NCBI RefSeq assembly: GCF_900573985.1
Contig: NZ_UWOK01000001.1
Location: forward strand, 310,001 to 374,000
Length of the DNA: 64,000 nucleotides
From: Campylobacter showae
GTDB lineage: Bacteria; Campylobacterota; Campylobacteria; Campylobacterales; Campylobacteraceae
Direction of reading: 5' to 3'
This document shows, piece after piece, positions 11,202-55,651 of this stretch. Below the pieces are notes generated by a model. That model had not been told where the DNA came from. It made no database searches and saw only the letters and a program-made list of their open reading frames with translations. Position 1 is the first letter of the stretch, and every line of letters starts with the position of its first letter. A program made the position numbers and the translations under genes.

Positions 11202-11205
11202 AAAT

Positions 11206-39775: not shown

Positions 39776-39865
39776 TGGCCGGGAGATAGGGATTCGAACC
39801 CCAGGAGGCTTTCACACCTCAACGGTTTTCAAGACCGCCGCTTTCGACCGCTCAGCCATCTCCCG
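39776..39865 (-). tRNA. tRNA-Ser (TGA)
   Basis: A 90-base class II tRNA with CCA encoded: acceptor CGGGAGA/TCTCCCG, anticodon loop CTTGAAA (anticodon TGA), long variable arm, T-arm GGTTCGAATCC, discriminator G. Confidence 0.94.
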
Positions 39866-39895
39866 CAAAAATATTTTGGCTAATTATAGCCAAAT

Positions 39896-40051
39896 TTATT
39901 CGGTTTTTTCCTTAACATAGGAAGCGCCTTTGTTGACTTTTTCCTTTGACCATTCAACGGCGTTATTTGTATCTTCTTTGGCTCCGCGCCAAGTATTTGA
40001 ACAGCCAACCATAAACAAAGTAGCAGATAATAGCACTAGTAAATAACGCAT
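39896..40051 (-). CDS. Entericidin-like small lipoprotein
   Basis: A 51-residue protein: MRYLLVLLSATLFMVGC lipoprotein signal with lipobox MVGC (Cys17), then a short polar helical tail (WRGAKEDTNNAVEWSKEKVNK). Size and the NTWRGAKEDT-type start of the mature part resemble entericidin A/B lipoproteins. AAGGAGAG lies 4 bases before the ATG. It sits between tRNA-Ser and tRNA-Cys. Role unknown; entericidins are linked to envelope stress in enterobacteria. Confidence 0.7.
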   Translation of the reverse strand: MRYLLVLLSATLFMVGCSNTWRGAKEDTNNAVEWSKEKVNKGASYVKEKTE

Positions 40052-40070
40052 TTTCTCTCCTTATAATTTT

Positions 40071-40144
40071 TGGAGGCGACACCCGGATTCGAACCGGGGA
40101 TCAAAGCTTTGCAGGCTCATGCCTTACCACTTGGCTATGTCGCC
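40071..40144 (-). tRNA. tRNA-Cys (GCA)
   Basis: A 74-base tRNA with encoded CCA: acceptor GGCGACA/TGTCGCC, anticodon loop CTGCAAA (anticodon GCA), T-arm GGTTCGAATCC. Weak top pair in the anticodon stem. Confidence 0.93.
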
Positions 40145-40154
40145 CAAAAGTCAA

Positions 40155-40241
40155 TGGTGCCCGAAACCGGACTTGAACCGGTACGGTAAAAAATACCGAG
40201 GGATTTTAAGTCCCTTGCGTCTACCATTCCGCCACCCGGGC
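40155..40241 (-). tRNA. tRNA-Leu (TAA)
   Basis: An 87-base class II tRNA: acceptor GCCCGGG/TTCGGGC with two G-T pairs, anticodon stem AGGGA/TCCCT with loop CTTAAAA (anticodon TAA), variable arm CGGTATTTTTTACCG, CCA encoded. Confidence 0.94.
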
Positions 40242-40266
40242 AAAAATTCCCTAAATTTAAAACCGA

Positions 40267-40341
40267 TGGAGCGGGAAACGAGATTCGAACTCGCGACCCC
40301 AACCTTGGCAAGGTTGTGCTCTACCCCTGAGCTATTCCCGC
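40267..40341 (-). tRNA. tRNA-Gly (GCC)
   Basis: A 75-base tRNA: acceptor GCGGGAA/TTCCCGC, anticodon stem CAACC/GGTTG with loop TTGCCAA (anticodon GCC), T-arm GTTCGAATC, CCA encoded. Confidence 0.94.
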
Positions 40342-40432
40342 ATTTTTGTTTGAGAAATGTGATTTTAGCTGATTTTTGCTTAAAATTTTATTTTATTTCA
40401 TCAAATTTCAAAATTTCGTAAGATAAAAATGA

Positions 40433-40438
40433 TATAAT
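40433..40438 (+). promoter_or_regulatory. -10 box of tRNA-Ala
   Basis: TATAAT 21 bases before the tRNA-Ala 5' end, preceded by an AT-rich stretch. Confidence 0.55.
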
Positions 40439-40459
40439 TCCAAAATATTTTCGACAATT

Positions 40460-40535
<76 letters not shown>

Positions 40536-40673: not shown

Positions 40674-41369
40674 ATGCAAGATTACTCCATTTTAGACGTT
40701 TTATCCAATAAAAAAGTCCTTTGTTTAGAGGATGAACCTTATATATTAAAAAATATGATCGACTCCCTCGAGCTGTTTTTTGCCGAAGTAAAAGGCGTAA
40801 GCGACGGCATCGAGGCGCTAGATGAGGCTATGAGCGGCTCATATGACGCGCTCGTCCTTGACGTCAGCGTCCCGCACATGGACGGACTAGAGGTAGCTAA
40901 AAAGATCCGCTGCGCAAACCACAAAATCCCTATTGTCATCATCTCAAGCCATACCGAGCAGGAGTATCTGTGGCGCGCAGTAGAGCTAAAGATCACGAGA
41001 TATCTATCAAAGCCTTACGACAAAGATACGTTTATAAAAGCGCTAGAAGACGTCGCGATGGAGCTCATCGACCATACGCCGATGTTTAGTATCAACGACG
41101 AGCTCAAATACGACTTTAGCAAAAAAATCATATATATAAAGGAAGAGGCCTGTCGCCTCTCCAAAAGCGAAAGCAAGCTTTTGGAGTATTTTTTAAACAA
41201 CAAAAATCAAACGATCACTTACGAGCAGCTGTTTGACTACATGTGGGAATTTGAACAGCCGACCAAAGAAGCCATCAAAACCATAGTAAAAGAACTGCGC
41301 CGAAAAATCGGCAAGGACACGATCAGAAATTTATACGGCGTAGGATATCTATGTGAAGTCCAAATTTAA
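40674..41369 (+). CDS. OmpR-type response regulator of the mcc locus (MccR-like)
   Basis: A 231-residue regulator: receiver domain with acidic pocket (LEDEPY, residues 19-23), phospho-acceptor D63 in LVLDVSVPHMDG, and KP near residue 112; then a winged-helix DNA-binding domain ending TIRNLYGVGYLCEV. The sensor-kinase gene overlaps its end by 17 bases, so the two form a two-component pair. It lies directly upstream of mccA. W. succinogenes has a two-component system (MccR/MccS) controlling its mcc cluster, and this pair occupies the equivalent position; orthology is inferred. Confidence 0.85.
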   Translation: MQDYSILDVLSNKKVLCLEDEPYILKNMIDSLELFFAEVKGVSDGIEALDEAMSGSYDALVLDVSVPHMDGLEVAKKIRCANHKIPIVIISSHTEQEYLWRAVELKITRYLSKPYDKDTFIKALEDVAMELIDHTPMFSINDELKYDFSKKIIYIKEEACRLSKSESKLLEYFLNNKNQTITYEQLFDYMWEFEQPTKEAIKTIVKELRRKIGKDTIRNLYGVGYLCEVQI

Positions 41370-42792
41370 ATTTATCATCCTGCTGCTCGTCGTTTTGTAC
41401 GGCGCCATTACAGTTTTGGTTTTTAACTTTTACCGCGATCTCGCACTAAAAGACGCCAAGCAGGAGGCAGTTTACGTGCTAGATGCGATGAACGGCATAC
41501 GCGACTACATCTCTACCGTCCAGCGCCCGCTCATAGATGAGTTAAAAGATCACGGCGCGATAGACAAAGACCTTTTTGACCCCAGACTCATGTCCTCATC
41601 CTACATCACGCGTCAAATTTACAAAATCCAGCTCGCCAAAAAAAATATAAACTACGACTACAGGCTAACGGCGACAAACCCGCTAAATCCCGAACACGAA
41701 GGCACGGAATTCGAAAATGAAATTTTAGAAGGGTTTAAGGAGGGCAAATACGAGGTCTACTCTGACGTAATCAAAGACCAAAACGCCTCGTACTTTTTCG
41801 TCGGCCTTCCGATCAAAAACTCCCACCCGTCCTGCGTCGAGTGCCACAACATAAACAGCGCGCCTAAAAAAATGCTCGAACAATACGGAAATTTAAATAA
41901 TTTCGAGGGCAAAGTCGGCGACACGATAGCGATGGTGAGCTTTAAAATCCCGGTAAAAAGCATTTTGCTTTATCATAAACAAGAATTTATCGTTAGCGGC
42001 GTGGCGATCACGGCGATCTTTGCGGCGTTTTTATTTTTCGTTTATAAAATCCACAAAGGCAACGAAAAAACCAAACTGCAAAACGAGCTTTTGATGATAA
42101 ATCAAAGCCGTCTAGCCTCCATGGGCGAAATGATCGGCAACATCTCGCACCAGTGGCGTCAGCCTCTAGCGCAGATCAGCTCGACTTTGGTAAATTTGGA
42201 GCTTTACTCCGAGCGAGGCAAGCTAAGCGAGCAGAGGCTAAAAGAGGCCATCGAAGAGGCAAACGAGCAGGTCAAATTTATGTCCGGCACTATCGAGGAT
42301 TTTAAAAATTTCTTTAATCCAAATATGCCAAAGAGCGAATTTGACGTAAAACAGGCCATAGAACAAGCTTGTAAAATTTTAAACGCGATGCTCAAAAGGC
42401 ACGTCATCGACGTAAAAGTCGAGATAAAAGAAAATTTTACGCTTTACGGAAATATAAACGAGCTCATTCAAATTTTAATCAACGTCATGAATAACGCCAA
42501 AGAAGCATTTTTAAATCTACCGCAAGAGCGGGCGCAAGCAAACCGACGGCAAATTGTAATAACCGCCCTTTTACAAAACGGAGAACGCGCGATCACGCTC
42601 GAAAATAACGCCGGCAATATAAATAAAGCGGTGATAAATAAAATTTTCAAGCCGCATTTTACTACGAAAAAGTCAGGCAGCGGGCTTGGGCTATATATGA
42701 GTAAGGTGATAGCCGAAAAAAATAACGCCCGAATTTACGCGCAAAATATAAATAACGGCGTAGTATTTACTATTAAATTTAAAAATTCATAA
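41353..42792 (+). CDS. Sensor histidine kinase with periplasmic DUF3365 c-haem domain (MccS-like)
   Basis: A 479-residue membrane sensor starting at GTG. Layout: N-terminal TM helix (FIILLLVVLYGAITVLVF), periplasmic DUF3365/Tll0287-like domain (about 35-205) carrying a c-type haem motif CVECH at residues 161-165, second TM helix (VSGVAITAIFAAFLFFVY), then the kinase core with phospho-acceptor H266 in GNISHQWRQPLAQI, N-box NVMNNAKEAF and G-box GSGLGLYMSK. A covalently bound haem suggests redox or ligand sensing in the periplasm, for example sulfite or redox state. Pairs with the overlapping response regulator and precedes the mcc genes. Confidence 0.88.
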   Translation: MKSKFKFIILLLVVLYGAITVLVFNFYRDLALKDAKQEAVYVLDAMNGIRDYISTVQRPLIDELKDHGAIDKDLFDPRLMSSSYITRQIYKIQLAKKNINYDYRLTATNPLNPEHEGTEFENEILEGFKEGKYEVYSDVIKDQNASYFFVGLPIKNSHPSCVECHNINSAPKKMLEQYGNLNNFEGKVGDTIAMVSFKIPVKSILLYHKQEFIVSGVAITAIFAAFLFFVYKIHKGNEKTKLQNELLMINQSRLASMGEMIGNISHQWRQPLAQISSTLVNLELYSERGKLSEQRLKEAIEEANEQVKFMSGTIEDFKNFFNPNMPKSEFDVKQAIEQACKILNAMLKRHVIDVKVEIKENFTLYGNINELIQILINVMNNAKEAFLNLPQERAQANRRQIVITALLQNGERAITLENNAGNINKAVINKIFKPHFTTKKSGSGLGLYMSKVIAEKNNARIYAQNINNGVVFTIKFKNS

Positions 42793-42804
42793 TTTATTAA
42801 ATTT

Positions 42805-42826
42805 CCCCTTTTTTCGCCCCCTTTTT
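42805..42826 (+). promoter_or_regulatory. Tandem CCCCTTTTT boxes upstream of mccA
   Basis: Two copies of CCCCTTTTT (42805-42813 and 42818-42826), 13 bases apart, lie 64 bases before the mccA ATG. Direct repeats in this position could be the binding site of the adjacent response regulator. The sequence is low-complexity, so caution is due. No clear TATAAT follows, consistent with activator dependence. Confidence 0.3.
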
Positions 42827-42889
42827 ACGATAGCATTATCAGTATGAAATCTTTTTGATTTTAGATCCAAAATTTATAAGGAGGGCGCA

Positions 42890-44956
42890 ATGAGGAATTT
42901 AAGTAAAACCTTATTAGGTTTGCTTATGGGCGTTAGCGTCTTCGCATCGCAAGCCTGTTGCGAAGAACACAACATGCAGATGTCTCAACAAGCGCGAGAC
43001 GTCATAGCAAACCCAAAAGGCACGCTTCAAAGTAGAGGCGTAATATCCTTGCAAGACTACATCGTAGAAGAGCAAGAGATGTATGAGTGGCTGTTTAAAA
43101 ACCACCCGATTTTCACAAAATACGGCGGTAAAACAGTCGGTAAACTAGATGTTCACGACCGTGGACTTGAGTGGCTTGCCGAAGGTCACGGCTTTGATAT
43201 GTCAAAAGCTAGTAAAAGAGACGGCGGTAAAGGCTACAGCTCTATGATGTATAGGATACCTGCTGGTTCGTCTTTGCAGTTCCCTAACAAATTCGTAGGA
43301 TCAGAAAAGTGCGGCGAGTGCCACCCTGCGCAGTACGAGGTATGGAGCAGATCGCGCCACGCCACTACTATCCGCTTCCCCGGCGAGCACCCGGAGGTTA
43401 ACAACAACCTAACCGATCCGGTATTTAGCCCTGATACTGCGTCTATCTTGCCTCAAGGTATTACCCCGGACGTTATTTACGCCACCGTCGGACACCTAAG
43501 AACCAAATTCGGCTACGTAGACGCGTGGTTGCTGCGAGGAACTTACCACATAGAGGGCGGTAACCTAAAAGACGGTACTGGTCAAGTCGTAGCAGGCGGT
43601 AACCAATTCCAAAGAACTTGGGCGCTAAATTTAACTCCTGAAACAGTTAAGAAAATCAAAGATTTCGTTCCTGATTTTCCGGAAACTCTAGCTGATTACG
43701 GCGATAACGGCGGATACGTCAGAGGTCTAGCCTCATACGCCGCTAAATACAAAAAGTCAATGTTCTTCCAAGCAAACGGCTCTTACTGCGAAGTTTGCCA
43801 CCCGTTCAAATTTGACTTCAAAACCAAGAAAGAGTTCTATGCGGCTCTTGGTAATGCTAAAGAGCTTCAAAAGCACACTATCTCTAAAGGCGTAAGCTGC
43901 GAGGAGTGTCACGGAGCCGGCGGTCACCTTGACGGAGCTACAAACTTTAGAACATCAAACTGCGAACGCTGTCACCAAAGATTTAACTATAGCCCAGACC
44001 TAGCTAGAGCCAATCCTCTAAACCAAGGCAAGCTTGACCTATCTCTAAGCTCTAAATTTAAATCAATGGGGCCAGGATGCGGATCTGAGGGTTCACAATC
44101 ATACTTTACCGCTCACTACGATAAAGGCATGCGCTGCACCACTTGCCACGATCCTCACGATAACACAGGTCCGGTTGTAGGCGATAAGACTATCAAGGGC
44201 GTAAACTATAACTCAGAGCAAGGCTACCTAAGTGCGCTTTACACCAAACCAAAAATCAGAAAAGATTGTCAAGATTGCCACAAAGAGCAAGCATATATCG
44301 CTTCAAGAGCCGATACGCATAAAGATAACACTTGCGCATCTTGCCACATGCCGTTCATGATGAGCTGCGAGAACTTCTACGCTATCCAGTTCCAAGACAA
44401 TGCTGGATTTGATACTCAAAGAAGATCTCACATCTGGAAGATCGACGTAGATCCTACTAGAAAATCTCTAGTTGCGGGCGACGCTGCTAAAGGACCGAGA
44501 GACGCTAAAGATTGGCACTTCCAAAGGGATAAAAACGGACACAACTTCGTTGACCTAATGTGGGCGTGCGCTAGAACGTCTTGGGCGGATAAAGATATGC
44601 AAGATACTAAAGGCTGCCATAGCCCTGTTCTATCTGAGCTAAAACCTACCCTACACTTCAAGAACCAAAAACAGGTTTACGACGAAGTAATGGGATGGCA
44701 AACTCCTGTTAAAAACGACTTCTCTCAAGTCAAAATCGGTATCGAGGGACTTTACGCTATCTTAGAAACTAAGAAACTAAGCCCTAGCGATAAGACAAGA
44801 GTTTATGAGCTAATCGAAAAAGCGCAAGACACAGTTGACTTGCTACAAAAAGACGGCTCATGGGGTATGCACGGCTTTAAATATACAAAACAAAGACTCG
44901 ACGCTTCTAAAGAGTACATCAAAGAAGCCCAAAGAATCATAAACAACAATTTATGA
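42890..44956 (+). CDS. mccA: Octahaem c-type cytochrome sulfite reductase MccA
   Basis: Terminal reductase of sulfite respiration; reduces sulfite to sulfide with six electrons in the periplasm. The 688-residue precursor has a Sec signal peptide and seven CX2CH haem motifs in order (CGECH, CEVCH, CEECH, CERCH, CTTCH, CQDCH, CASCH). An eighth, atypical motif follows: cysteine in MWACAR, 15 residues, then GCH, i.e. CX15CH, the hallmark of MccA. Two non-haem cysteines, C397 (GPGCGS) and C493 (SCENFY), are 96 residues apart, the same spacing as the copper ligands I recall for W. succinogenes MccA (C399, C495). AAGGAGG precedes the ATG. First gene of the mcc cluster. Confidence 0.96.
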   Translation: MRNLSKTLLGLLMGVSVFASQACCEEHNMQMSQQARDVIANPKGTLQSRGVISLQDYIVEEQEMYEWLFKNHPIFTKYGGKTVGKLDVHDRGLEWLAEGHGFDMSKASKRDGGKGYSSMMYRIPAGSSLQFPNKFVGSEKCGECHPAQYEVWSRSRHATTIRFPGEHPEVNNNLTDPVFSPDTASILPQGITPDVIYATVGHLRTKFGYVDAWLLRGTYHIEGGNLKDGTGQVVAGGNQFQRTWALNLTPETVKKIKDFVPDFPETLADYGDNGGYVRGLASYAAKYKKSMFFQANGSYCEVCHPFKFDFKTKKEFYAALGNAKELQKHTISKGVSCEECHGAGGHLDGATNFRTSNCERCHQRFNYSPDLARANPLNQGKLDLSLSSKFKSMGPGCGSEGSQSYFTAHYDKGMRCTTCHDPHDNTGPVVGDKTIKGVNYNSEQGYLSALYTKPKIRKDCQDCHKEQAYIASRADTHKDNTCASCHMPFMMSCENFYAIQFQDNAGFDTQRRSHIWKIDVDPTRKSLVAGDAAKGPRDAKDWHFQRDKNGHNFVDLMWACARTSWADKDMQDTKGCHSPVLSELKPTLHFKNQKQVYDEVMGWQTPVKNDFSQVKIGIEGLYAILETKKLSPSDKTRVYELIEKAQDTVDLLQKDGSWGMHGFKYTKQRLDASKEYIKEAQRIINNNL

Positions 44957-45010
44957 TGCGATTACGGACGCCGCGATTTTGCGGCGTCCAAATTTAATAA
45001 GGTAAAATTT

Positions 45011-45823
45011 ATGCGTTTTAAATTTAGCAAAAACCCGCTTTTAGCTCTTTGCCTAACGGCCGGCTGCGTTTTATGCGCTAGTGCGGCGGATAAAGAGGCG
45101 ATGACGCAAGAGCAAAAAGAATCATACAGTATCGGAATTTCAACCGGAACCTATATATCCGCACAACTAAAAAAACAAGAAAGCCTAGGTGTTAAATTTG
45201 ACAGCAAGTCCATTTTAGACGGCTTTGCAGACGCCTTTAAAAAAGAACAAAAACTAACAGACGAAGAAATAATCTCCCTGCTCAATCAAAGGGACGAAAA
45301 ATTAAATAAGCTAACCCAAGACGCGCTTAAAAAAGCGCTTGAAAAAAATTTAAAAGAGGGCGAAGAATTTATGGCGAAAAACGCCAAAAACAAAAAGGTC
45401 AAAACGACTAAATCAGGGCTTCAGTACGAAGTCATGGCAGTCGGCGACGGCGATAAGCCAAGACCCGAGAGCGTAGTCGCGCTAAACTACAAAGCCTACC
45501 TCATAAACGGCAAAGTTTTTGACGACACGTACTCTAGAAACGAGCCTGCGATCCTTTCGATGGTAAATTTGATAGACGGCTTGCAAGAGGGCCTCATGAT
45601 GATGAACGGCAACTCAAAATATAAATTCGTCATCCCGTCTCACCTAGCTTACGGAGACGAGGGCGCAGACGAGATACCGGGCGGCTCGACGTTGATTTTT
45701 GAAGTCGAGCTAGTAAAGGCGCTAAAACCTGGCGAGCTAGCCGGCGCAGCCAAAAAACTAAGCGAAACTCAGCCGCGAAATTTCCATGGCGCGCATAGCC
45801 ACGGAAGTAGCGTTGGTAGATAA
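45011..45823 (+). CDS. mccB: FKBP-type peptidyl-prolyl isomerase MccB
   Basis: A 270-residue secreted protein with a Sec signal peptide (LLALCLTAGCVLCASAA), a Mip-like helical dimerisation domain (SYSIGISTGTYISAQLKKQ...) and a C-terminal FKBP domain (about 140-245: VVALNYKAYLINGKVFDDTY, LIDGLQEGLMMM, IPSHLAYGDEGADEIPGGSTLIFEVEL). A His-containing tail (FHGAHSHG) follows. It probably assists folding of the multihaem MccA. It follows mccA at 54 bases, the same gene order as the W. succinogenes mcc cluster. Confidence 0.9.
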   Translation: MRFKFSKNPLLALCLTAGCVLCASAADKEAMTQEQKESYSIGISTGTYISAQLKKQESLGVKFDSKSILDGFADAFKKEQKLTDEEIISLLNQRDEKLNKLTQDALKKALEKNLKEGEEFMAKNAKNKKVKTTKSGLQYEVMAVGDGDKPRPESVVALNYKAYLINGKVFDDTYSRNEPAILSMVNLIDGLQEGLMMMNGNSKYKFVIPSHLAYGDEGADEIPGGSTLIFEVELVKALKPGELAGAAKKLSETQPRNFHGAHSHGSSVGR

Positions 45824-45859
45824 ATTTAGGATATTTAATCCATACGGATGGAGAAGAAT

Positions 45860-46543
45860 ATGAAAGAGCAAAATACAAGAAGGACGTTTTTTAAATTCCT
45901 TGCTTCTGGAGCGGCGGTTGCGGGAGCGACTAGCGTACTAGGCAAGAGTATAAATTTAGACGCCCCTACGGAAAACGGCAAAAAGCCGCACTACGGCATG
46001 ATCTTTGATCAGAATAAATGCGTCGGCTGTACCGACTGCGAGGTCGCCTGTCAAAAAGTAAATTTGGTTCCAAAAGGCCAGATGAGGCTTTTTATCCAGG
46101 ATAAAACCGATCCGCTAAATTTAAAAGAAAAACGCTACGTCAGGGTTTCCTGCCAGCAGTGCGAGGACGCGCCGTGCGTGACCGTTTGCCCGACAAAAGC
46201 CTGCCACAAGGACGAAAAAACCGGCATCACGACGATGAACACCGACGACTGCATCGCCTGTAAATACTGCATCGTCGCCTGTCCTTACGACGTGCGCTTT
46301 ATAAATCACGAAACCAAAGCCGCAGAGAGCTGCAACTTCTGCTTGGATACGAATTTAAAAGACGGCCACGAGCCTGCCTGCATCGAGGCATGCAGATACG
46401 AGGCGATCGTGTTCGGCGATCTAAACGACGAAGAGTCGCACATCAGCAAGCTACTTCGCGTCAAAGACAGCCTACGAATGCATCCTGAGTGCGGCACGAA
46501 GCCGAGCCTTCGCTATATTCCTGCGGTTAAATTGGGGGTGTGA
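45860..46543 (+). CDS. mccC: Periplasmic ferredoxin-like Fe-S protein MccC (NrfC type)
   Basis: A 227-residue electron-transfer protein exported by Tat (TRRTFFKFL at the N-terminus) with four cysteine clusters for [4Fe-4S] centres: CVGCTDCEVAC, CQQCEDAPCVTVC, CIACKYCIVAC and CNFC...CIEAC. It would pass electrons from MccD to MccA. The ATG at 45860 is preferred to the one at 45848 because GGAGAAG lies just before it and the Tat motif follows closely. Followed after one base by mccD. Confidence 0.93.
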   Translation: MKEQNTRRTFFKFLASGAAVAGATSVLGKSINLDAPTENGKKPHYGMIFDQNKCVGCTDCEVACQKVNLVPKGQMRLFIQDKTDPLNLKEKRYVRVSCQQCEDAPCVTVCPTKACHKDEKTGITTMNTDDCIACKYCIVACPYDVRFINHETKAAESCNFCLDTNLKDGHEPACIEACRYEAIVFGDLNDEESHISKLLRVKDSLRMHPECGTKPSLRYIPAVKLGV

Positions 46544-46544
46544 T

Positions 46545-47516
46545 ATGAACGGAGCTATAAATTTCACTGCGACCTTCTCGCACGGCGTAGAGTGGGGCTG
46601 GCCGATTGCGGTTTATCTTTTGCTAGCGGGTATGAGCGGCGGCGCTTTGGTAGTCGCGATCCTCGTCAAATTTTATAAAAAGCAGACCGAAAGCACGCCG
46701 CTGTTTAAGGCTGCGTCGTTGCTATCTTTCGTAGCAATCCTTCTGGGTATGGTCTGCCTGGTAGCCGATTTAGAGCGGCCGCTACTTTTTTGGAAAATTT
46801 TGATTAACTATAACTTCACCTCGGTTATGTCCGTGGGCGTGGCGGCGCTTTGCGTCTATATCCCGCTTAGCTTCGTAGCCTGCCTTTATGCGTTTGAAGC
46901 TGATCTTAGCGGATTTTTATCACGCAGACTTACTTTTTTAAAAGGGCTTTTCACGCTCGTAATGAAAATTTTAAACGCGCTTCGCCCGCTACTTCTTGCG
47001 CTTACGCTTGTTTTTGCGGTCGCGATCTGCGCCTATACGGGCTTTTTGATCTCGGTTTTGGTTAGATTTCCTATCCTTAATACCGCTGTTTTACCTGCGC
47101 TTTTCGTGGCGTCTGGCTTATCTGCGGGTATCGCAGGCTCTAGCCTCATAGCCGCGCTTTTCTTTAAAGCAGACCCGCACGGCGGCGATCTAAAAATTCT
47201 ACACGCGGTCGAGTGGCCGGTTTTAGCGATGGAAATTTTATTAATCGGTATGATTTTCGTCTCGCTAGTAACGGGCAGCGACGTGCAGAAAGCCGCGAGC
47301 GCCGCATTTAGCGATGGAATTTACGCTCAGCTATTTTGGCTAGGCGTCGTAGGCGTAGGATTTTGCGTACCGCTAGTTTTAAATTTCGCACTGGGCAAAA
47401 AGATCGCTCACACCGCGTTTGCGTTCTACGTTAGCGCGCTTGCTAGCGTGGTCGGAGTATTACTTCTTAGAATGTTTATACTATACGCAGGTCAAACTTA
47501 CGATATAATAATGTAA
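46545..47516 (+). CDS. mccD: NrfD/PsrC-type quinol dehydrogenase membrane subunit MccD
   Basis: A 323-residue polytopic inner-membrane protein (about eight to nine spans) of the NrfD family, which oxidises menaquinol and feeds an NrfC-type Fe-S partner. Family features are WGWPIAVYLLLAGMSGGALV near the N-terminus and DLERPLLFWKIL after the second span. With MccC it forms the quinol-oxidising module. Spacing of one base to mccC shows co-translation. Confidence 0.92.
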   Translation: MNGAINFTATFSHGVEWGWPIAVYLLLAGMSGGALVVAILVKFYKKQTESTPLFKAASLLSFVAILLGMVCLVADLERPLLFWKILINYNFTSVMSVGVAALCVYIPLSFVACLYAFEADLSGFLSRRLTFLKGLFTLVMKILNALRPLLLALTLVFAVAICAYTGFLISVLVRFPILNTAVLPALFVASGLSAGIAGSSLIAALFFKADPHGGDLKILHAVEWPVLAMEILLIGMIFVSLVTGSDVQKAASAAFSDGIYAQLFWLGVVGVGFCVPLVLNFALGKKIAHTAFAFYVSALASVVGVLLLRMFILYAGQTYDIIM

Positions 47517-47534
47517 AAACTCGGAGAGGCGATT

Positions 47535-50231
47535 TTGGGCGTAAATTTATTTAGATTTTTCACTTCTTACAAATTTGCGCTCTGCCTCCTCTTTATCCTA
47601 GCCGCAGGCGCCGGCGTCGCAACCTTTTTAGAGAGCATTTACGACACGCAAACGGCTAAAATTTTAGTCTACGAGGCGCGCTGGTACGAGTGCGTTATGA
47701 GCGCGCTCGCGCTTTGCTTGCTCGGCATAATCATAAAAACAAAAATGTGGCGCCGCTTCGGCTCATTCGTTCTGCATGCGGCATTTATCGTCATCTTTAT
47801 CGGTGCGGCTTTGACGCGTTATCTGGGCGCTGAGGGCGTACTGCACGTAAGGGCGGGTGAGAGCGGAAATGAGATGGTGAGCGTAAAACCGTTTTTGCAA
47901 ATACGCACCAAAGACGCATTTTTCGAGTATCCGCTAAATTTAACCCAAATCGGCGATAATAATTTTAGCTTCACGCAAACCATAAACTCAAAAAATTTCA
48001 CCGTCAAATTTGACTCATATAAGCCCGCGCCAAAAGGCGAGCGCGGTACTCTCGTAGTAAAATCGGGCTTTGAAGGGCAGCGCGAACAAACAGCCAAAAT
48101 CCACGGCGGCGTAGGCTGGCTGGGCGAGCCTAGTATGCTAAATTTTGACGGCGAGGAGATAATGCTAACCTGGGGCTCAAGGCTAGTTAGCTTGCCGTTT
48201 TCGATAAAGCTTATTAAATTTGAGCTTGAACGCTACCCAGGCTCTCAAAGCCCGTCCTCATACTCTAGCGACGTAGAGGCGCTTTCAGACGCGGGCGAGG
48301 TTTTAACGAGATATAAAATTTACATGAATCATCCGCTAAATTTGCAAGGCTTTAAACTCTTTCAATCATCCTACGACGCGGACGAGCAAGGCACGGTGCT
48401 AGAGGTCAACCGCGACCCGGGCAAAATCCCGACCTATATCGGATATTTCTTGCTTTGCGCCGGCGTTATCGGCAACTTTTTTACTAAAAATAGCCGCTTT
48501 TTAAAGCTCATAAATTTCATCAAAAACAGCAGATTTTCGCTCGTCGCGGCCTTTATCGCGCTTGGTTTTTTAAATTTTAATGCAAACGCGGCCGAGCAAA
48601 ACGGGAGCGAGATTTTAAAAACTTTCGCCGCAAACACCGCCGCTCACGCTAACGGCGAATTTGCAAAGCTTCTCGTGCAAGACTACGCGGGCAGGATAAA
48701 GCCGCTTAGCACCGAAGCGGGCGAAATCGTAAATAAAATCTCGGGCACGGACTCGCTTTACGGCCTAAGCGCCGAACAAATCGTGCTTGGTATGAATCTA
48801 AATCCCGCGCTGTGGCAAGAGATAAAAATCGTCAAGATAAAAAACGGCGAGATAAAAAAGATGCTAAATTTGAGCGGAGATTACGCGAGTTTTAGAGATG
48901 CGTTTGACGCAAACGGCGAGTATAAACTGGCCACACAGGTCGAAGCCGCGAACGAAAAACCTCTATCAAAACGAGGCACGCTCGATAACGACCTCATCAA
49001 ATTTGACGAGCGACTAAACATCGCGTATCTAACGTTTAAGGGCACGTTTTTTAAATTTATCCCGGTAGCAAACGACCCGCAAAATGCCTGGCTCTCGCCA
49101 AACGACGCATTTGGCGACGAGCGAGTCGATACCAATGCAAAAAGCATGCTAAACGACTATATAACTGGCCTGCAAGAAGGCATCTCGGATAATAACTGGG
49201 GCAAGGCCGACTCCGCACTAGCCGCACTAAGAAACTATCAGCGAACGGCTTCGGCGGAAATTTTACCTAGCGTTAGCAGAGTCGATGCCGAAGTCTTTTA
49301 CAATCGTGCTTCGGTGTTTAAAAAACTGGTTTATTTCTACTGGATTTTGGGCTTTGCCGCGCTTTTGCTTGGGCTTGCTTCAGTGTTTTTATCGAGGCGA
49401 ATTTTACCGCTTGAGCGAGCGATTTTAGCGGCGTTTGCGCTTGGATTTGCGGTGCATACGGCAGCTTTGGCGCTACGCTGGTACGTCTCGGGGCATGCGC
49501 CTTGGAGCGATAGCTACGAATCAATGATCTATATCGGCTGGTCCGGAGCGCTAGCTGGGATGATATTTTTTAGACGTTCGTTGCTTGCGCTTGCGGCGTC
49601 GGCGCTGCTGGCCGGCATCGTGATGCTAGTGGCTCACATGAGCTTCGTAAATCCGCAGATAACGAATTTAGTCCCGGTACTAAAGTCTTATTGGCTCAGT
49701 ATCCACGTCTCGGTCATCACGGCTAGCTACGGATTTTTGGGCCTTGGCTGCGTGCTTGGGCTTATCGCGCTAGGACTCATGGCGTTTAAAAACAAAGCCA
49801 ACGAGGCTAGACTAAACGAGCAGATTAGATATATCGCGGCGATCGATGAAGCAAGCCTGATTATCGGCATTTGCCTACTGACGCTTGGAAATTTTTTCGG
49901 CGGAATCTGGGCGAACGAGAGCTGGGGGCGCTACTGGGGTTGGGATAGCAAAGAAACATGGTCGTACGTCTCGATCCTGGTTTACGCGATCGCGCTACAT
50001 CTGCGCTTTATACCGAAGCTAAATTCGCTCTACGTATTTTTGATCGCATCGGTGTTTTCTTACGCCTCGATCGCGATGACTTATTTTGGCGTAAATTTTT
50101 ACCTAACGGGCATGCACTCTTACGCCAGCGGAGATTTGCCGCCGGTGCACATTAGCGTATATATCGCGCTTGGATGCATGCTCTTGATAACCGCGCTAGC
50201 CTTTAGAGGGCGCGACGTAAAAACGATTTAA
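47535..50231 (+). CDS. ccsA1: Cytochrome c haem lyase, fused CcsBA type, CcsA1-like
   Basis: An 898-residue inner-membrane system II haem lyase that exports and attaches haem to apo-cytochromes. The N-terminal CcsB/ResB part has TM segments and a large periplasmic domain. The C-terminal CcsA/ResC part contains the tryptophan-rich WWD-type motif (GIWANESWGRYWGWDSKETW) and conserved periplasmic histidines (LRWYVSGHAPWSDSYE, GMHSYASG). The start is TTG with GGAGAGG upstream. In W. succinogenes CcsA1 is dedicated to the CX15CH haem of MccA, and its position right after mccD supports the same job here. Confidence 0.93.
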   Translation: MGVNLFRFFTSYKFALCLLFILAAGAGVATFLESIYDTQTAKILVYEARWYECVMSALALCLLGIIIKTKMWRRFGSFVLHAAFIVIFIGAALTRYLGAEGVLHVRAGESGNEMVSVKPFLQIRTKDAFFEYPLNLTQIGDNNFSFTQTINSKNFTVKFDSYKPAPKGERGTLVVKSGFEGQREQTAKIHGGVGWLGEPSMLNFDGEEIMLTWGSRLVSLPFSIKLIKFELERYPGSQSPSSYSSDVEALSDAGEVLTRYKIYMNHPLNLQGFKLFQSSYDADEQGTVLEVNRDPGKIPTYIGYFLLCAGVIGNFFTKNSRFLKLINFIKNSRFSLVAAFIALGFLNFNANAAEQNGSEILKTFAANTAAHANGEFAKLLVQDYAGRIKPLSTEAGEIVNKISGTDSLYGLSAEQIVLGMNLNPALWQEIKIVKIKNGEIKKMLNLSGDYASFRDAFDANGEYKLATQVEAANEKPLSKRGTLDNDLIKFDERLNIAYLTFKGTFFKFIPVANDPQNAWLSPNDAFGDERVDTNAKSMLNDYITGLQEGISDNNWGKADSALAALRNYQRTASAEILPSVSRVDAEVFYNRASVFKKLVYFYWILGFAALLLGLASVFLSRRILPLERAILAAFALGFAVHTAALALRWYVSGHAPWSDSYESMIYIGWSGALAGMIFFRRSLLALAASALLAGIVMLVAHMSFVNPQITNLVPVLKSYWLSIHVSVITASYGFLGLGCVLGLIALGLMAFKNKANEARLNEQIRYIAAIDEASLIIGICLLTLGNFFGGIWANESWGRYWGWDSKETWSYVSILVYAIALHLRFIPKLNSLYVFLIASVFSYASIAMTYFGVNFYLTGMHSYASGDLPPVHISVYIALGCMLLITALAFRGRDVKTI

Positions 50232-50243
50232 AAAGGAGAAAAA

Positions 50244-51089
50244 ATGTATAAAAAACTACTAACGGCGGCGGTTTTATGCGCTAGCGCAAACGCGGGCTTT
50301 ATCCAAGAGGGCATGCAAGCCCAGCAAAGCGGCGACCATAAAAAGCTGATAGAAATCTACGAAAAAGCCTGCCACGAGGAAAACAAGGCTTCGGGCTGCT
50401 ACAACCTTGCAGTGGTGTATTTCGAAGGCACTGGCGGCGTAGAGAAAAATTATGAAAAGGCGATAAATTTATACCAAAAAGCTTGCAACGCCAAATTTGC
50501 GCTTGCTTGCAACAATCTAGGCTACATCTACGAAAGCGGCAACGGCGCGACTCAGGACTTTGCTAAAGCAGCCGCATACTACGAAAAAGCCTGCCAAGAC
50601 GACGAAGGCTGCACTTCGCTAGGGCTACTTTACGCAAACGGCGCGGGCGTCAAAACCGATATCAAAAAAGCCATCTCGCTCTACACCAAAGCCTGCGACT
50701 ACGGCGATATGATGGGATGCAATAACCTAGGCTATCTGCACCTTGAAGGCATGGGCGTAGAAAAAGACTACGTCAAAGCAAAAGCCTTTTACGAAAAGGC
50801 CTGCGCGGGCAGCGTCGGTATCGGCTGCGACAACCTAGGCTTTTTGTATGCATTCGGTCAAGGCACGGAGCAAGACTATGCTAAAGCTAAAGAATTTTAC
50901 GAAAAATCCTGCGCCCTAAACTACGACAAAGGCTGCAACAACCTAGCCATAATGTACGCCGAGGGCAAAGGCGTCGCGGCCGATGTCGCCAAGGCCAAAG
51001 AGCTCTTTGACAAAAGCTGCGCAAAAGGCCTAAAAGTCGCGTGCGAGAATGCGGAGTTTTTAAAACCGGAAACAAATAAAACTAAATAA
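50244..51089 (+). CDS. Sel1-repeat cysteine-rich secreted protein
   Basis: A 281-residue secreted protein with a short signal peptide and about seven Sel1-like repeats of roughly 36 residues. Each has a pair of cysteines spaced to bridge the two helices (KACN...ACNNLGYIYESG and similar), the Helicobacter Hcp design. It sits between ccsA1 and the copper-chaperone gene and shares their tight spacing (12 and 14 bases), so it is part of the mcc transcript. A role as a periplasmic assembly scaffold is plausible but unproved. AAAAGGAG precedes the ATG. Confidence 0.82.
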   Translation: MYKKLLTAAVLCASANAGFIQEGMQAQQSGDHKKLIEIYEKACHEENKASGCYNLAVVYFEGTGGVEKNYEKAINLYQKACNAKFALACNNLGYIYESGNGATQDFAKAAAYYEKACQDDEGCTSLGLLYANGAGVKTDIKKAISLYTKACDYGDMMGCNNLGYLHLEGMGVEKDYVKAKAFYEKACAGSVGIGCDNLGFLYAFGQGTEQDYAKAKEFYEKSCALNYDKGCNNLAIMYAEGKGVAADVAKAKELFDKSCAKGLKVACENAEFLKPETNKTK

Positions 51090-51103
51090 TTTAAGGAGAT
51101 AAT

Positions 51104-52240
51104 ATGATTTTACGTTCTATTTTGGGTTCGGCGCTACTAGCGGCGCTAATGTTTGGCGCCGAAGCAAACGAACAAGCCGGCAAGATGAAGCCGATGTTTC
51201 AAAGCGTAGATCCAAGCAAAGCTACGCTAGTAGGAAGCGGCGAGGATAAAGAGTACTGCGCCGTTTGCGGCATGAATTTGGTTAAATTTTATAAAACCAA
51301 CCACGTCTATAACGGCAAACAAGTAGCATCGCTGCACTGCTTATACGAGCTCACGGAGGGCAAGATCCCAAGCGACGCGCAGGTCGTCGATACGAAAAAT
51401 CTAAATTTGATCGATGCAAATAAAGCCTTTTACGTCGTCGGCAGCAAGATCGGCGGCACGATGACTAGAAATAGCAAATACGCCTTCTCAACCGAGGCCG
51501 ACGCAAAAGAGTTCCAAGCCGAAAACGGCGGCGAGATAATGAATTTCGCTAAGGCTTACGAGATCGCGGGACAGGACTTTGAGGGCGATAACAAGATGAT
51601 CAAAGCCAAACGCGAGAGCGGCGTTTACGCGCACGGCAAGGAATTTTACGAAGCAAACTGCGAGAAAACCAATCCAAAAAACTTTAAAGCTATCTCCGAG
51701 CTAAAAGCCCATCTCAAAAAAACATGCGACGCAAAGGGTGCCGGCAAAGCCCCTGAGTACGACAAACACCTACAAGCAGCAGCACTTTACCTATGGGACG
51801 CTCCGGCAAATTTAGGCACGAGCGATCAAGCCTCAAAATCTAAGCAAAAAACGCAAAAAGCCGAGAGGATCGTCGTGCCAAAAGGCGCGCGCTGCCCCGT
51901 TTGCGGTATGCTAATCGGCAAAAACCCGCAGTGGGCGACGATGATGAAAACAAGCAAAGAGGAGCTTTACTTTGACGGCGTCAAGGATATGATGAAGTAT
52001 TATTTCGAAAAAGGCAAAAAAGACGATCAAATTTTCGTTAGCGACTACTACAAGCTAAACAAAATCGACGCTAGAACCGCCTACTACGTAACCGGCTCAA
52101 ACGTACTCGGACCTATGGGCAACGAGCTGATACCGTTTGCCAGCGAAGAGGACGCTAAGACCTTCGCCAAAGATCACGGCGGCAAACAGATCGTCAAATT
52201 TGACGAGATCACGACTCTTTTAGTTGAGAGGTTGATGTGA
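51104..52240 (+). CDS. Double-domain NosL-like copper chaperone (MccL-like)
   Basis: A 378-residue secreted protein with two NosL-type domains in tandem. The first has CAVCGMNLVKFYKTNHVY and AFYVVGSKIGGTMTRNSKYAF; the second has CPVCGMLIGKNPQWATMM and AYYVTGSNVLGPMGNELIPF. CXXCGM with a downstream Met is the copper(I)-binding motif of NosL. Between them is a helical linker (residues about 150-245). NosL-type proteins deliver copper to periplasmic enzymes; W. succinogenes has a related protein, MccL, in its mcc locus. Likely supplies the Cu ion of MccA. AAGGAGA precedes the ATG. Confidence 0.85.
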   Translation: MILRSILGSALLAALMFGAEANEQAGKMKPMFQSVDPSKATLVGSGEDKEYCAVCGMNLVKFYKTNHVYNGKQVASLHCLYELTEGKIPSDAQVVDTKNLNLIDANKAFYVVGSKIGGTMTRNSKYAFSTEADAKEFQAENGGEIMNFAKAYEIAGQDFEGDNKMIKAKRESGVYAHGKEFYEANCEKTNPKNFKAISELKAHLKKTCDAKGAGKAPEYDKHLQAAALYLWDAPANLGTSDQASKSKQKTQKAERIVVPKGARCPVCGMLIGKNPQWATMMKTSKEELYFDGVKDMMKYYFEKGKKDDQIFVSDYYKLNKIDARTAYYVTGSNVLGPMGNELIPFASEEDAKTFAKDHGGKQIVKFDEITTLLVERLM

Positions 52241-52425
52241 GGCTCATCTGCGTTTTAGCGGGCTTTTTTGCGATCCTTTACATTTGTATCGGGGCACATT
52301 ATCTAGGCTTTGATAGAGCGGGCAAGGAGGCTCAGCTAAATTTGATCCAAAAATCCGTCAAAGACGCGCAAATTTCGACGAATTTTATTTCAAAAGAGTA
52401 CGGGAAGTTTGTCTATGCCGAGTAA
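52237..52425 (+). CDS. Small membrane protein (62 aa) in the mcc tail
   Basis: A 62-residue protein with one N-terminal membrane helix (LICVLAGFFAILYICIGAHYLGF) and a short polar tail. It overlaps the NosL-like gene (ATGTGA region, 4 bases) and the permease gene. No family recognised. Its overlap on both sides makes it a likely component of the transporter encoded downstream. Confidence 0.6.
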   Translation: MRLICVLAGFFAILYICIGAHYLGFDRAGKEAQLNLIQKSVKDAQISTNFISKEYGKFVYAE

Positions 52426-53524
52426 AAATTTTATCGATTACGCAGTTACGCTGCTCTATAAAGACCGCGCCGATCACGCTTTTAGCTTTTTTATCTTCGC
52501 TTTTATCGTGTTTATCTTAAGCGCTGTTCTTTTCGTCTCAAGCTCCATCCAAAGCGACCTTACAAATTTGACCCGATCAAAGCCCGAAGTCGTCGTCGAA
52601 GCTCTGCGCGCCGGCAAACGCGATCTGATGCACGACGGCTACATCTACGACGTCTCAAAGATCGCGGGCGTAGCTAGCGTAGAGGGCGCGGTCGAGGGGG
52701 AGTATTATTTCGCGCAAAAGAGAGTCTGGTTTCGCATCGTCGGCGATGAAAATTTGGACGAAAACGAGATGATCGTGGGCGAAGGCGTGAAAAAAGAGAT
52801 GGCGGAGCTTTATTACGATGACGTTTTTAACTTTTTAACCGAAGAAAAGATGATACCGATAAAGATCAACAAAACCGCACCGCATGAAACGGGTATCGTC
52901 TCAAACGACGTCATCTATATGAATCCCGCCACCGCGCGCGAAGTGCTAAGCCTAAAAGAGGGCGAATACACGAGGCTCTACGTCGAGGTACCAAACGTAA
53001 ACGAGATCAGCGAAGTGGCCCTAAAGATCCAAAACGTCTATCCAAACACCGAGGTTACGAGCATCGAGGACGGAGTAGCCAAAATAAGGCACCTTTACTA
53101 CTACAAAGGCGGCATTTTCATGGTGCTTTACGTCGTGGCGATGGTTTCGTTTTTCATCCTGCTGAAAAATCAAATTTCGCTCGCTTACGGCGAGAAGAAA
53201 AAGGAGATCGCGATATTGCGCAGTATCGGCTTTAGCGTTAGAAATATCATCGCACTTAAATTTATCCAAAACATCGTCGTTTCTTTTAGCGCCTATTTGC
53301 TAGGCGTCGCGGGAGCCTATATCTACGTGTTTTTATTCGGCGCGCCGTTTTTACGCGATATATTTTTAGGCAGCGAGGTGGCGAATTTTACCGATTTTAC
53401 GCCGATCATAGACTTTAATATGCTATTTTTGATCTTCGTTTTTAGCGTGATTCCGTTTTTGGCATTCGTCATAATCCCGTCGTGGCGCATCGCCGTTAGC
53501 GACATGAGCGAGGCGATAAAATGA
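52415..53524 (+). CDS. FtsX/MacB-type ABC transporter permease
   Basis: A 369-residue permease: N-terminal TM helix, a periplasmic domain of about 190 residues (MacB_PCD-like), then three TM helices with the FtsX core (KKEIAILRSIGFSVRNIIALKFIQN). The ATG at 52415 is chosen over TTG 52409 because GGGAAG lies 7 bases before it. Such permeases mostly act as mechanotransmitters or extract lipoproteins or substrates rather than import small solutes. Overlaps the ATPase gene by 4 bases (ATGA). Resembles NosF/Y-DL-like accessory transporters in context, not sequence. Confidence 0.85.
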   Translation: MPSKNFIDYAVTLLYKDRADHAFSFFIFAFIVFILSAVLFVSSSIQSDLTNLTRSKPEVVVEALRAGKRDLMHDGYIYDVSKIAGVASVEGAVEGEYYFAQKRVWFRIVGDENLDENEMIVGEGVKKEMAELYYDDVFNFLTEEKMIPIKINKTAPHETGIVSNDVIYMNPATAREVLSLKEGEYTRLYVEVPNVNEISEVALKIQNVYPNTEVTSIEDGVAKIRHLYYYKGGIFMVLYVVAMVSFFILLKNQISLAYGEKKKEIAILRSIGFSVRNIIALKFIQNIVVSFSAYLLGVAGAYIYVFLFGAPFLRDIFLGSEVANFTDFTPIIDFNMLFLIFVFSVIPFLAFVIIPSWRIAVSDMSEAIK

Positions 53525-54195
53525 ACGCAATAGAAGTAAAAAATCTATGTAAAATTTACAATCAAAATAAACCCAACGAATTTCACGCGCTAAAAAATAT
53601 AAATTTGACTGTAAAAAGCGGCGATCTAGTTATCCTAAAAGGCGTTAGCGGTAGCGGCAAAAGTACGCTACTAGGCATTCTAGGCGCGCTTAGCAAACCA
53701 AGTAGCGGCGAAGCACTGATCAACGGCCGCAACGTCTCAAAGCTACCCGACATCATGAGTTCAAATTTTAGACATAGCGAGGTAGGGTTTATATTTCAGT
53801 CCTTTAACCTGATCGAGGGCCTTAGCGTCTATCAAAACGTGCTAGCGCCGCTAAGCCTAACAAGTCTTAAAAAAACCGAGCTAAATTCGCAAATCGAGCG
53901 CGCGCTAAATCTCGCCAACATCGCGCACAAAAAAGATCAAATCATCTCAAAGCTAAGCGGCGGCGAGAAGCAGCGATGCGCGATAGCAAGGGCTCTAGCG
54001 ATGGATCCTAGCGTCATACTAGCCGACGAACCGACGGCAAATTTGGACAAACAAAACTCGCTTATTTTTATCGAAATGCTAAAAAAATTTAAAGAGCTAA
54101 AAAAGACCGTCGTCGTCGCCACGCACGATATTTTATTTGACGATCTGGACTTCGTGGACGGCTACGTGAGGATGCAGGACGGAGAGATGCTGTGA
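53521..54195 (+). CDS. LolD/MacB-type ABC ATPase
   Basis: A 224-residue ATPase partner of the FtsX-type permease. Motifs: Walker A GVSGSGKST (about residue 41), Q-loop IFQSFNL, signature LSGGEKQR, Walker B VILADEPTANLD, switch ATHD. Starts inside the permease gene's stop (ATGA) and overlaps the next gene (GTGA). Confidence 0.9.
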   Translation: MNAIEVKNLCKIYNQNKPNEFHALKNINLTVKSGDLVILKGVSGSGKSTLLGILGALSKPSSGEALINGRNVSKLPDIMSSNFRHSEVGFIFQSFNLIEGLSVYQNVLAPLSLTSLKKTELNSQIERALNLANIAHKKDQIISKLSGGEKQRCAIARALAMDPSVILADEPTANLDKQNSLIFIEMLKKFKELKKTVVVATHDILFDDLDFVDGYVRMQDGEML

Positions 54196-55145
54196 GCGTA
54201 TTTTTATCTGACGAAGTTATCGCGTTTTTGTTGATCGAGCTTATAATAATTGTTTTAATGGGTATTTCGCAGTATTTCGTCGTGCGCATCATGCGCCTGT
54301 GGGACTTTAACTCGACGTCAAATTTGCAATACGACCTAGAAAAGCGCAACTACCTCGTAAATACGATTTTGTTTTTCGCCGTAGTTTGCAAGATCGTTTT
54401 ATTCGTATTTTTTGCGCTATCTCTAAACGAGCTAGCAGACGTGGTACCCGGCGCCATGTGCTCTGCCGGCGTCATCGGTTCAAATCAATTTGGCGGCATT
54501 TTGCTACTGCTAAAACTGCTACTCATTTTTGGCTTCGGGCTGTGGCTCATTATAAATTCGCTTGATTTAAAGGCGACGAATTTCCCGTATTTAAAGCGAA
54601 AATACGTCATCTTCACCGCGCTTTTTATCGGCGTTTTGATCGAATTTGCCGCTGAGATTTTGTTTTTTAGCAACGTACCGCTAAAAGTACCCGTCTTTTG
54701 CTGCTCGGTCGTGTTCCAGGCGCCAAAGCTACCGTTTGGCTATACGAAGTTAAATTTGGTCATATTTTACTACGCCGTTTTTGCGGTCATTTTGACGCTA
54801 AATTTACTCAAACAGACGATGGCGAGCTTTGTTTGTAACCTGCTGTTTTTATTTATCGCATACTACGCGATTACTTATTTTTTCGGGCTTTACGTCTACG
54901 AACAGCCAAATCACAAATGCCCGTACTGCATGCTAAAAGGCGAGTATTTTTACGTCGGTTACCTCATCTGGGGTTCGCTGTTTTTGGGTATTTTCTACGG
55001 CATATCGGCGTTTTTGGTCGAGCTAATCGTGAAAAAACCTTACGAGCATTTGCTCAAAATTTCCTCTTTTTGGCTGATCGTAAATGCTCTTGTTTGCAGC
55101 TTTTTCGTCGCTAAATACTACCTTTTGCGAGGAGTTTTATTATGA
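54192..55145 (+). CDS. Polytopic membrane protein of unknown function in the mcc tail
   Basis: A 317-residue protein with about eight hydrophobic segments and a striking set of cysteines in loops between them (GAMCSAG, VFCCSVVF, HKCPYCMLKGEYF). The CPYC pair and the paired CC could form a redox or metal-binding site at the membrane surface. No named family recognised. GTG start overlapping the ATPase stop; overlaps the last gene by 4 bases (ATGA). Candidates are a copper or thiol handling protein for MccA assembly. Confidence 0.65.
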   Translation: MSVFLSDEVIAFLLIELIIIVLMGISQYFVVRIMRLWDFNSTSNLQYDLEKRNYLVNTILFFAVVCKIVLFVFFALSLNELADVVPGAMCSAGVIGSNQFGGILLLLKLLLIFGFGLWLIINSLDLKATNFPYLKRKYVIFTALFIGVLIEFAAEILFFSNVPLKVPVFCCSVVFQAPKLPFGYTKLNLVIFYYAVFAVILTLNLLKQTMASFVCNLLFLFIAYYAITYFFGLYVYEQPNHKCPYCMLKGEYFYVGYLIWGSLFLGIFYGISAFLVELIVKKPYEHLLKISSFWLIVNALVCSFFVAKYYLLRGVLL

Positions 55146-55651
55146 TAAGGCAAATTTTCGCCGCCGTGCTACTTATCGGCGTGGTGGCGCTGCTCGCGTT
55201 TTCCGTGGATACTAGCGAGGGCAAAATCGTAGTTCGCCACGGCAATATAGAAAAAAAGCCGCTAGAAATCGAGCTTGGCAAATACCTCTGCTTTGAGAGC
55301 AAGGTGCTCATTAGCGACCTAAACAACACGGCTCAGGCGGTGATGCCAAACGGCGATACGTACTTTTTCTACGACATCTCAAACTCGTTTACTTGGCTCA
55401 TGCGGCAAAAAAATAAAGACGACGTCGTGCTGTGGGTGTATTCGCAAGACACAAGCCGATATATCCTAGCTAAAGACGCCTGGTACTCGCGCGTAGACAT
55501 CACTCCGATGGGATACGGTATCGGTGCGTACGAATACCACGTTTACGGCATCAACGACAACTATTTCGAGGACGTAATGCTCTACGCCGCACGGGGAGAG
55601 ACGCTGATAAATCCGCTCATTTTTATCTTGCTTTCGGAGAATAAAATTTAG
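55142..55651 (+). CDS. Membrane-anchored periplasmic protein, last gene of the mcc run
   Basis: A 169-residue protein with an N-terminal hydrophobic anchor (FAAVLLIGVVALLAFSV) and a periplasmic domain (GNIEKKPLEIELGKYLCFESKVLISDLNNTAQAVM, YFFYDISNSFTWLM). It has a single cysteine (C in KYLCFES) and many aromatics. This resembles nothing I can name. Five coupled genes end here, and 400 bases of spacer follow. Confidence 0.6.
   Translation: MIRQIFAAVLLIGVVALLAFSVDTSEGKIVVRHGNIEKKPLEIELGKYLCFESKVLISDLNNTAQAVMPNGDTYFFYDISNSFTWLMRQKNKDDVVLWVYSQDTSRYILAKDAWYSRVDITPMGYGIGAYEYHVYGINDNYFEDVMLYAARGETLINPLIFILLSENKI

Follow-up and report, generated by a model that had tools for sequence, protein, structure and literature searches.

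We analyzed a 64,000-nucleotide stretch of Campylobacter showae (the window) that carries, at positions 40674–55651, an mcc locus: genes for the octahaem cytochrome c sulfite reductase MccA, its predicted electron-transfer and haem-assembly partners, and a downstream set with NosL domains and an ATP-binding cassette (ABC) transporter pair. We consider it likely that all genes of the locus work together in respiratory sulfite reduction, with the downstream set delivering Cu(I) to MccA. Supporting this reading are an end-to-end match of MccA to the Wolinella succinogenes enzyme (4rkm), its motifs, conserved gene order, linkage of the downstream 8-helix gene to mccA in 54 of 55 genomes with canonical MccA, NosL folds, and the exchange of the set for NosLDFY genes in Shewanella-type loci. 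The sulfite reductase itself is already known, and the locus adds one more species to an established system; what draws interest is the proposed role of the downstream genes as a copper-supply module. We found no explanation of the source of MccA copper in the open-access literature.

Layout of the Locus

All genes lie on the + strand with intact frames: a haem-sensor two-component pair, MccA, MccB, MccC, MccD, CcsA1, and the downstream set. A first-pass annotation had described 13 genes in one run; those 13 open reading frames are present, and a gene for a 62-amino-acid protein (52237–52425) had been overlooked, so that the real count is 14. Domains were assigned from Pfam and NCBIfam profile scores, and PDB sequence searches were cut at E ≤ 1e-3.

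40674–41369, +, OmpR-type response regulator (Pfam Response_reg 78.5 bits, Trans_reg_C 54.5 bits)
41353–42792, +, sensor histidine kinase with periplasmic Tll0287-like domain and CXXCH (Tll0287-like 107.8 bits, HATPase_c 43.2 bits)
42890–44956, +, MccA, octahaem c/copper sulfite reductase (688 amino acids; 4rkm match over residues 4–687, 1307 bits)
45011–45823, +, MccB, FKBP-type peptidyl-prolyl isomerase (Pfam FKBP_C 80.6 bits, FKBP_N 80.2 bits)
45848–46543, +, MccC, NrfC-like 4Fe-4S electron-transfer protein (Fer4_11 67.7 bits; TIGR03149 223.9 bits, under its cutoff of 377.6)
46545–47516, +, MccD, NrfD-like quinol-oxidizing membrane subunit (Pfam NrfD 213.9 bits)
47535–50231, +, CcsA1, ResB-CcsA fusion cytochrome c haem lyase (Cytochrom_C_asm 128.5 bits, ResB 94.4 bits)
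50244–51089, +, secreted cysteine-rich Sel1-repeat protein (Sel1 167.8 bits, six repeats)
51104–52240, +, tandem NosL protein (Pfam NosL 163.2 bits against a cutoff of 24, in two stretches)
52237–52425, +, 62-amino-acid protein with one N-terminal membrane helix (by eye); GTG start, overlaps nosL and ftsX
52409–53524, +, FtsX/MacB-type ABC permease (Pfam FtsX 40.5 bits)
53521–54195, +, LolD/FtsE/MacB-type ABC ATPase (ABC_tran 115.8 bits)
54192–55145, +, 8-helix membrane protein of an undescribed family (model predicted local distance difference test [pLDDT] 88.9)
55142–55651, +, NosL-fold protein with an N-terminal helix (likely anchor), lacking CXM

The profile matches bear out the two-component system proposed earlier (response regulator and histidine kinase domains) and the labels MccB, MccC, MccD, and CcsA1 (FKBP, 4Fe-4S, NrfD-like, and ResB/CcsA). 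The protein called NosL-like does belong to the NosL family; it has two NosL domains, and a second, NosL-fold gene stands at 55142–55651. What had been summarized as further coupled genes largely keeps its order in relatives, while the probable copper-delivery role of the downstream half had gone unnoticed.

Identity of MccA

Window MccA has the octahaem complement attributed to it, with all eight motifs present: CXXCH at residues 141, 300, 337, 358, 416, 460, and 482, and CX15CH at residue 560. Its sole PDB match is W. succinogenes MccA (4rkm/4rkn, one distinct sequence). In the alignment with 4rkm, Cys397 and Cys493 (spacing, 96 residues) fall on cysteines and are presumably the counterparts of Cys399/Cys495, which we take to be the Cu(I) ligands of the W. 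succinogenes enzyme. Both are kept in 59 of 59 rows of the MccA alignment, window included (two short frames from locus L053 and one from L051 were removed beforehand). By analogy, MccA would reduce sulfite to sulfide.

Resemblance to other multihaem c proteins, together with NrfC/NrfD-type partners, could instead suggest an octahaem nitrite, hydroxylamine, or tetrathionate reductase. We regard this as highly improbable and close to refuted. In the PDB search neither octahaem nitrite nor tetrathionate reductase was matched; because MccA alone was returned, that result argues against either identity, as do the CX15CH motif and the presence of both copper-ligand positions.

The MccA of C. showae CC57C (L001) is 99% identical to that of the window, and that of genome G178 is 78% identical. 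The G178 protein scores 1307.1 bits over residues 4–687 of window MccA, exactly as 4rkm does, and for this reason G178 is taken to be W. succinogenes. The order mccA-mccB-mccC-mccD-ccsA1 occurs in the window and in G178, in agreement with the earlier equation with the W. succinogenes mcc cluster, and is shared by Sulfurospirillum and Campylobacter loci.

Linkage of the Downstream Genes to mccA

We found 58 loci with MccA (flanks of 10 kilobases [kb], reach limited by contigs). Canonical Campylobacter and Sulfurospirillum loci run regulator, kinase, mccA, mccB, mccC, mccD, ccsA1, Sel1, NosL, FtsX, ATPase, 8-helix, and NosL-fold genes, some with additional genes between ccsA1 and NosL. Other genes separate the regulator pair from mccA in L012, where the pair is ∼3 kb upstream, and in L013, where it is ∼4.4 kb upstream; no regulator pair was found in the 10 kb upstream in L014 (Sulfurovum).

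MccA was matched (E ≤ 1e-60) in 96 of 397 Campylobacterota genomes, 55 canonical (63–99% identity) and 41 of a second kind (46–51%). The 8-helix gene lies 8,406–11,780 base pairs downstream of mccA, on the same contig and strand, in 54 of the 55 canonical genomes; in the 55th (G192) the two genes are on separate contigs, with mccA at a contig end. Among the 56 best 8-helix genomes, only G070 is without a canonical mccA. Many of the genomes are close relatives, so these linkage counts are not independent events.

Three side observations concern locus structure. In G070 (L125), mccA and mccB are gone and mccC is shortened; mccD, ccsA1, and the downstream set are kept. A gene for a 422-amino-acid radical S-adenosylmethionine protein (Pfam; L123, 4613–5881) lies between the ccsA1 and Sel1 genes, and frames of 421–426 amino acids stand at this position in L009 (17841–19109), L011, L012, L015, and L119. 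The regulator gene beside mccA in Sulfurospirillum diekertiae (L017, 6806–8414) is in two pieces ∼0.9 kb apart.

Candidate Copper-Delivery Genes

Each half of the tandem NosL protein carries a CXXCXM motif (CAVCGM and CPVCGM), the copper motif of clade-II NosL according to the accessible text of PMC6530538. The 62-amino-acid gene occupies an apparent 168-nucleotide gap before ftsX, running over the nosL stop at one end and the ftsX start at the other. Its product has no Pfam family match; all 16 mcc-type loci that extend to ftsX, the window's among them, have a counterpart (that of L014 within a longer frame). The ABC pair scores below the equivalog cutoffs of LolCDE and FtsEX (LolD 186.5 vs. 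307.75 bits, FtsE 182 vs. 264.85, lolCE 36.5 vs. 362.45), and the best NCBIfam score of the ATPase, 188.6 bits to TIGR03608, is also below its cutoff. The 8-helix protein matched nothing in Pfam or NCBIfam; M89-C90, C170-C171, H241, C243, and C246 are invariant in 51 of 51 aligned rows and are placed on the predicted periplasmic side. The last protein has a NosL fold. Comparing profiles gave E 4.2e-5 with a probability of 69.5, and a weaker result against A3 (E 8.8e-4, with a probability of 23.3).

In the mechanism we propose, the NosL domains would carry Cu(I), and the ABC machine, the Cys-rich 8-helix protein, and the NosL-fold anchor would hand it on to MccA, with the 62-amino-acid protein as part of the same delivery set; NosDFY is thought to perform this transfer for NosZ. 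Linkage, fold, and an exchange of gene sets together suggest that the downstream genes probably deliver copper.

The exchange emerged from a tblastn search at 1e-5 of 22 Shewanella, Ferrimonas, Duodenibacillus, and Parasutterella loci whose sequence continues for 9.5 kb or more beyond mccA on its downstream side. NosL, NosD, and NosF occur together in 21 of the 22 and NosY also in 20 (the L028 NosY was detected at 34%, outside this count), with FtsX or 8-helix matches in none. Profiles of L020 give Pfam NosD 141.6 bits and ABC-2 permease 102.7 bits. Reciprocally, no NosD or NosY match at 1e-5 was found in the 14 canonical Campylobacterota loci with 10 kb downstream. FtsX is present in 12 of these; L012 and L015 stop short of its place, and the L012 genome carries an 8-helix gene further downstream. 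The mcc locus of the window has neither a NosD β-helix nor a NosY-type permease, its permease being FtsX-type. In Shewanella-type sir loci, NosL-NosD-NosF-NosY probably does the copper-delivery job. Linkage and this swap thus single out candidate genes for MccA copper loading. As a separate observation, the Ferrimonas loci L035 and L036 each hold two tandem mccA-B-C-D sets.

Cassettes Outside mcc Loci and the Noncopper Alternative

The downstream cassette also occurs apart from mccA. The FtsX-ATPase-8-helix order is kept in 19 of 19 loci mapped, 17 of them non-mcc. Most of the 17 have a short frame before ftsX (L116 and L117 have the NosL end there, and the L106 frame stops before the ftsX start as placed in this analysis), and 13 of their stretches contain a NosL homologue or NosL-fold gene. 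In L111 the cassette is flanked by NosF and NosY within a nos operon that also has NosZ, NosD, and cytochromes. Its setting is similar in the Sulfurospirillum loci L105 and L107, where NosY and NosF were assigned solely from position, length, and resemblance. An unrooted FastTree phylogeny of the three joined proteins (FtsX, ATPase, and 8-helix) from 26 loci clusters the nine mcc cassettes (support 1.0) and places L111 adjoining them (1.0), with L105/L107 on another branch. By these groupings, nos-operon cassettes fall on two branches and mcc cassettes on one within the 26-locus sample.

A wider proposal, for and against which we see the case as evenly balanced, is that Campylobacterota possess a second, NosDFY-independent copper-insertion machine. 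Its five-gene core—the 62-amino-acid membrane protein, FtsX-type permease, LolD-type ATPase, Cys-rich 8-helix protein, and NosL-fold anchor—would be fed by NosL, would have been recruited once to MccA and at least twice to nos operons, and would replace NosDFY in mcc loci. If true, this would be a new type of copper-loading ABC machine, bearing also on nitrous oxide reduction.

The ABC set might instead move no copper, acting as a thiol/redox or sulfur-supply module or as a LolCDE-like placer of NosL/MccA assembly factors; in the thiol version, the 8-helix protein with its HxCPxC would be a disulfide or thiol relay. The ATPase scores nearest MacB/LolD/FtsE-type families, L111 and L115 have a DsbD_2 gene after the cassette, some solitary copies have housekeeping genes (truD and secY, for example) as neighbors, and of the 94 non-mcc copies listed, 72 are away from NosZ. 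Against these points stand the NosL or NosL-fold genes in most mapped non-mcc cassette stretches, the occurrence of cassettes in both nos operons and mcc loci, whose enzymes NosZ and MccA are both copper enzymes, and the presence of NosLDFY in the cassette's place in Shewanella-type loci. We judge a noncopper role the less likely reading.

Several results count against copper delivery to MccA as a complete account of the cassette. The 8-helix family is present in 161 of 397 genomes, so a copper role for MccA is not exclusive. Among the 94 non-mcc copies listed, 22 have NosZ within 20 kb (16 on the same strand, 6 on the opposite), 29 are in NosZ genomes away from NosZ, and 43 come from genomes in which NosZ was not matched; with only 22 near NosZ, the cassette must have other clients or a broader role. 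Neither a NosL homologue nor a NosL-fold gene was found in the stretches of L109, L110, L112, and L113 (4 of 17 non-mcc). The NosL-fold anchor lacks CXM: the window protein has CFESKV, and of 28 rows just the three most distant have CGM. Parasutterella L032 has neither the FtsX set nor the NosLDFY set. Finally, a third MccA group (Campylobacter jejuni, C. taeniopygiae, Mucispirillum, Edwardsiella, and others) retains the cysteines at the copper-ligand positions and frequently has CX17CH, and neither the FtsX set nor a NosDFY set was found in the stretches covered; across MccA as a whole, the cassette therefore does not go hand in hand with the copper site.

The third-group loci mapped (L039, L043, L045, L047, and similar) have their own arrangement: mccA is followed by a gene whose product has six CXXCH, and after it come genes for a thioredoxin-like protein and a CcsA-type lyase. 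In L039 the six-CXXCH protein includes rhodanese and weak cytochrome-b561-like parts. Neither MccD nor NosL was matched in the third-group stretches covered.

Proposed Regulation, Electron Path, and Haem Assembly

We take the window response regulator to be MccR-like. Read directly from its sequence, the sensor kinase is predicted to carry a covalent haem, and the pair would control expression of the locus. Among 18 mcc loci scanned, the kinase was detected in 15, with CXXCH in 14 of these (the 15th, L010, is a contig-end fragment); it was not found within the stretches of L005, L014, and L015.

Following characterized relatives, menaquinol (or methylmenaquinol) would be oxidized by MccD, and electrons would pass through MccC to periplasmic MccA, which would reduce sulfite at a haem c-Cu(I) site. 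Methylmenaquinone has been suggested as a likely electron donor for sulfite (PMC6682613, accessible text). CcsA1, a special haem lyase in characterized relatives according to the accessible parts of PMC6976685 and PMC8076601, would attach haem at the CX15CH of MccA. Folding of apo-MccA would be aided by MccB and perhaps by the Sel1 protein, which by position and repeat type may be an apo-MccA chaperone, a role that in Shewanella falls to SirG. A Sel1 homologue is present in 14 of the 18 loci scanned, and the remaining four stop short of its place.

Predicted Sulfite Respiration in C. showae

The first-pass annotation predicted sulfite respiration; gene identities and gene order support it, and the step from them to respiration in this organism is one we infer from genes. 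A point against it comes from Sulfurospirillum arcachonense and Sulfurospirillum barnesii, which encode an MccA-like enzyme and whose physiology suggests that sulfite is not used as an acceptor (PMC4794192, accessible text). Because these species have the gene yet reportedly make no use of sulfite, the locus predicts capacity, not growth. The S. arcachonense locus, L012, has open frames from mccA to nosL in its available stretch.

The same two species favor the alternative that an intact locus serves sulfite detoxification or electron disposal without growth by sulfite respiration. We think this unlikely for C. showae: MccC and a quinol-type MccD are present in the window, and MccACD of W. succinogenes and Shewanella oneidensis is listed as a quinol:sulfite oxidoreductase (PMC8076601, accessible text). 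The presence of the sulfite reductase predicts that this host-associated Campylobacter produces sulfide from sulfite.

Neighboring Features

Five tRNA genes (Ser, Cys, Leu, Gly, Ala; 39776–40535) lie directly upstream of the mcc locus. Farther away, an Rfam HPnc0260 antisense RNA (13131–13283, −; 82.8 bits) overlaps the end of tRNA-Val (13094–13169, +), and an FAD_binding_2 protein with a twin-arginine translocation (TAT) signal (11206–12759, −) is flavocytochrome- or fumarate-reductase-like.

Comparison with Known Systems

The W. succinogenes mcc cluster, for which other papers cite Kern 2011 and Hermann 2015 as its reported sources, is represented here by G178 (L124). It resembles the window in gene order, including mccB and the downstream ABC set. 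It differs in having a UPF0093-family gene between ccsA1 and Sel1, absent from the window, and a response-regulator gene spread over two frames at about residue 164 (L124, 4446–5133), where the window gene is intact.

The Shewanella sir cluster shares with the window an MccA-family reductase with an atypical haem motif, an MccB homologue, and NosL. MccC/MccD homologues occur in 14 of the 22 Shewanella-type loci; because the other eight (L018, L021, L024, L025, L027, L031, L033, L034) have no mccC/mccD match, their quinol link must lie elsewhere. The sir cluster differs in having NosD-NosF-NosY where the window has the FtsX set and no close CcsA1 homologue; in S. oneidensis, SirEFG and CcmI do the haem-lyase job of CcsA1 (PMC6976685, accessible text). 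The words "copper," "ABC," and "NosL" are absent from the main text of that paper.

The NosLDFY machinery (7znq, 7osf, 7osg, 7og7) parallels the window locus in that a NosL chaperone and an ABC pair accompany a periplasmic copper enzyme, and in the NosL fold of the last gene of the locus. The window locus departs from it in having an FtsX-type permease in place of NosY, no NosD β-helix, and an extra Cys-rich 8-helix protein. A further parallel to the core set is in Sulfurospirillum cavolei, whose nos clusters carry a five-gene insertion (hypothetical, ABC permease, ATPase, hypothetical, hypothetical) with no function stated in the accessible text of PMC4794192. In that insertion (L105), the gene order is the same as in the core set of the window, and its location is a nos operon.

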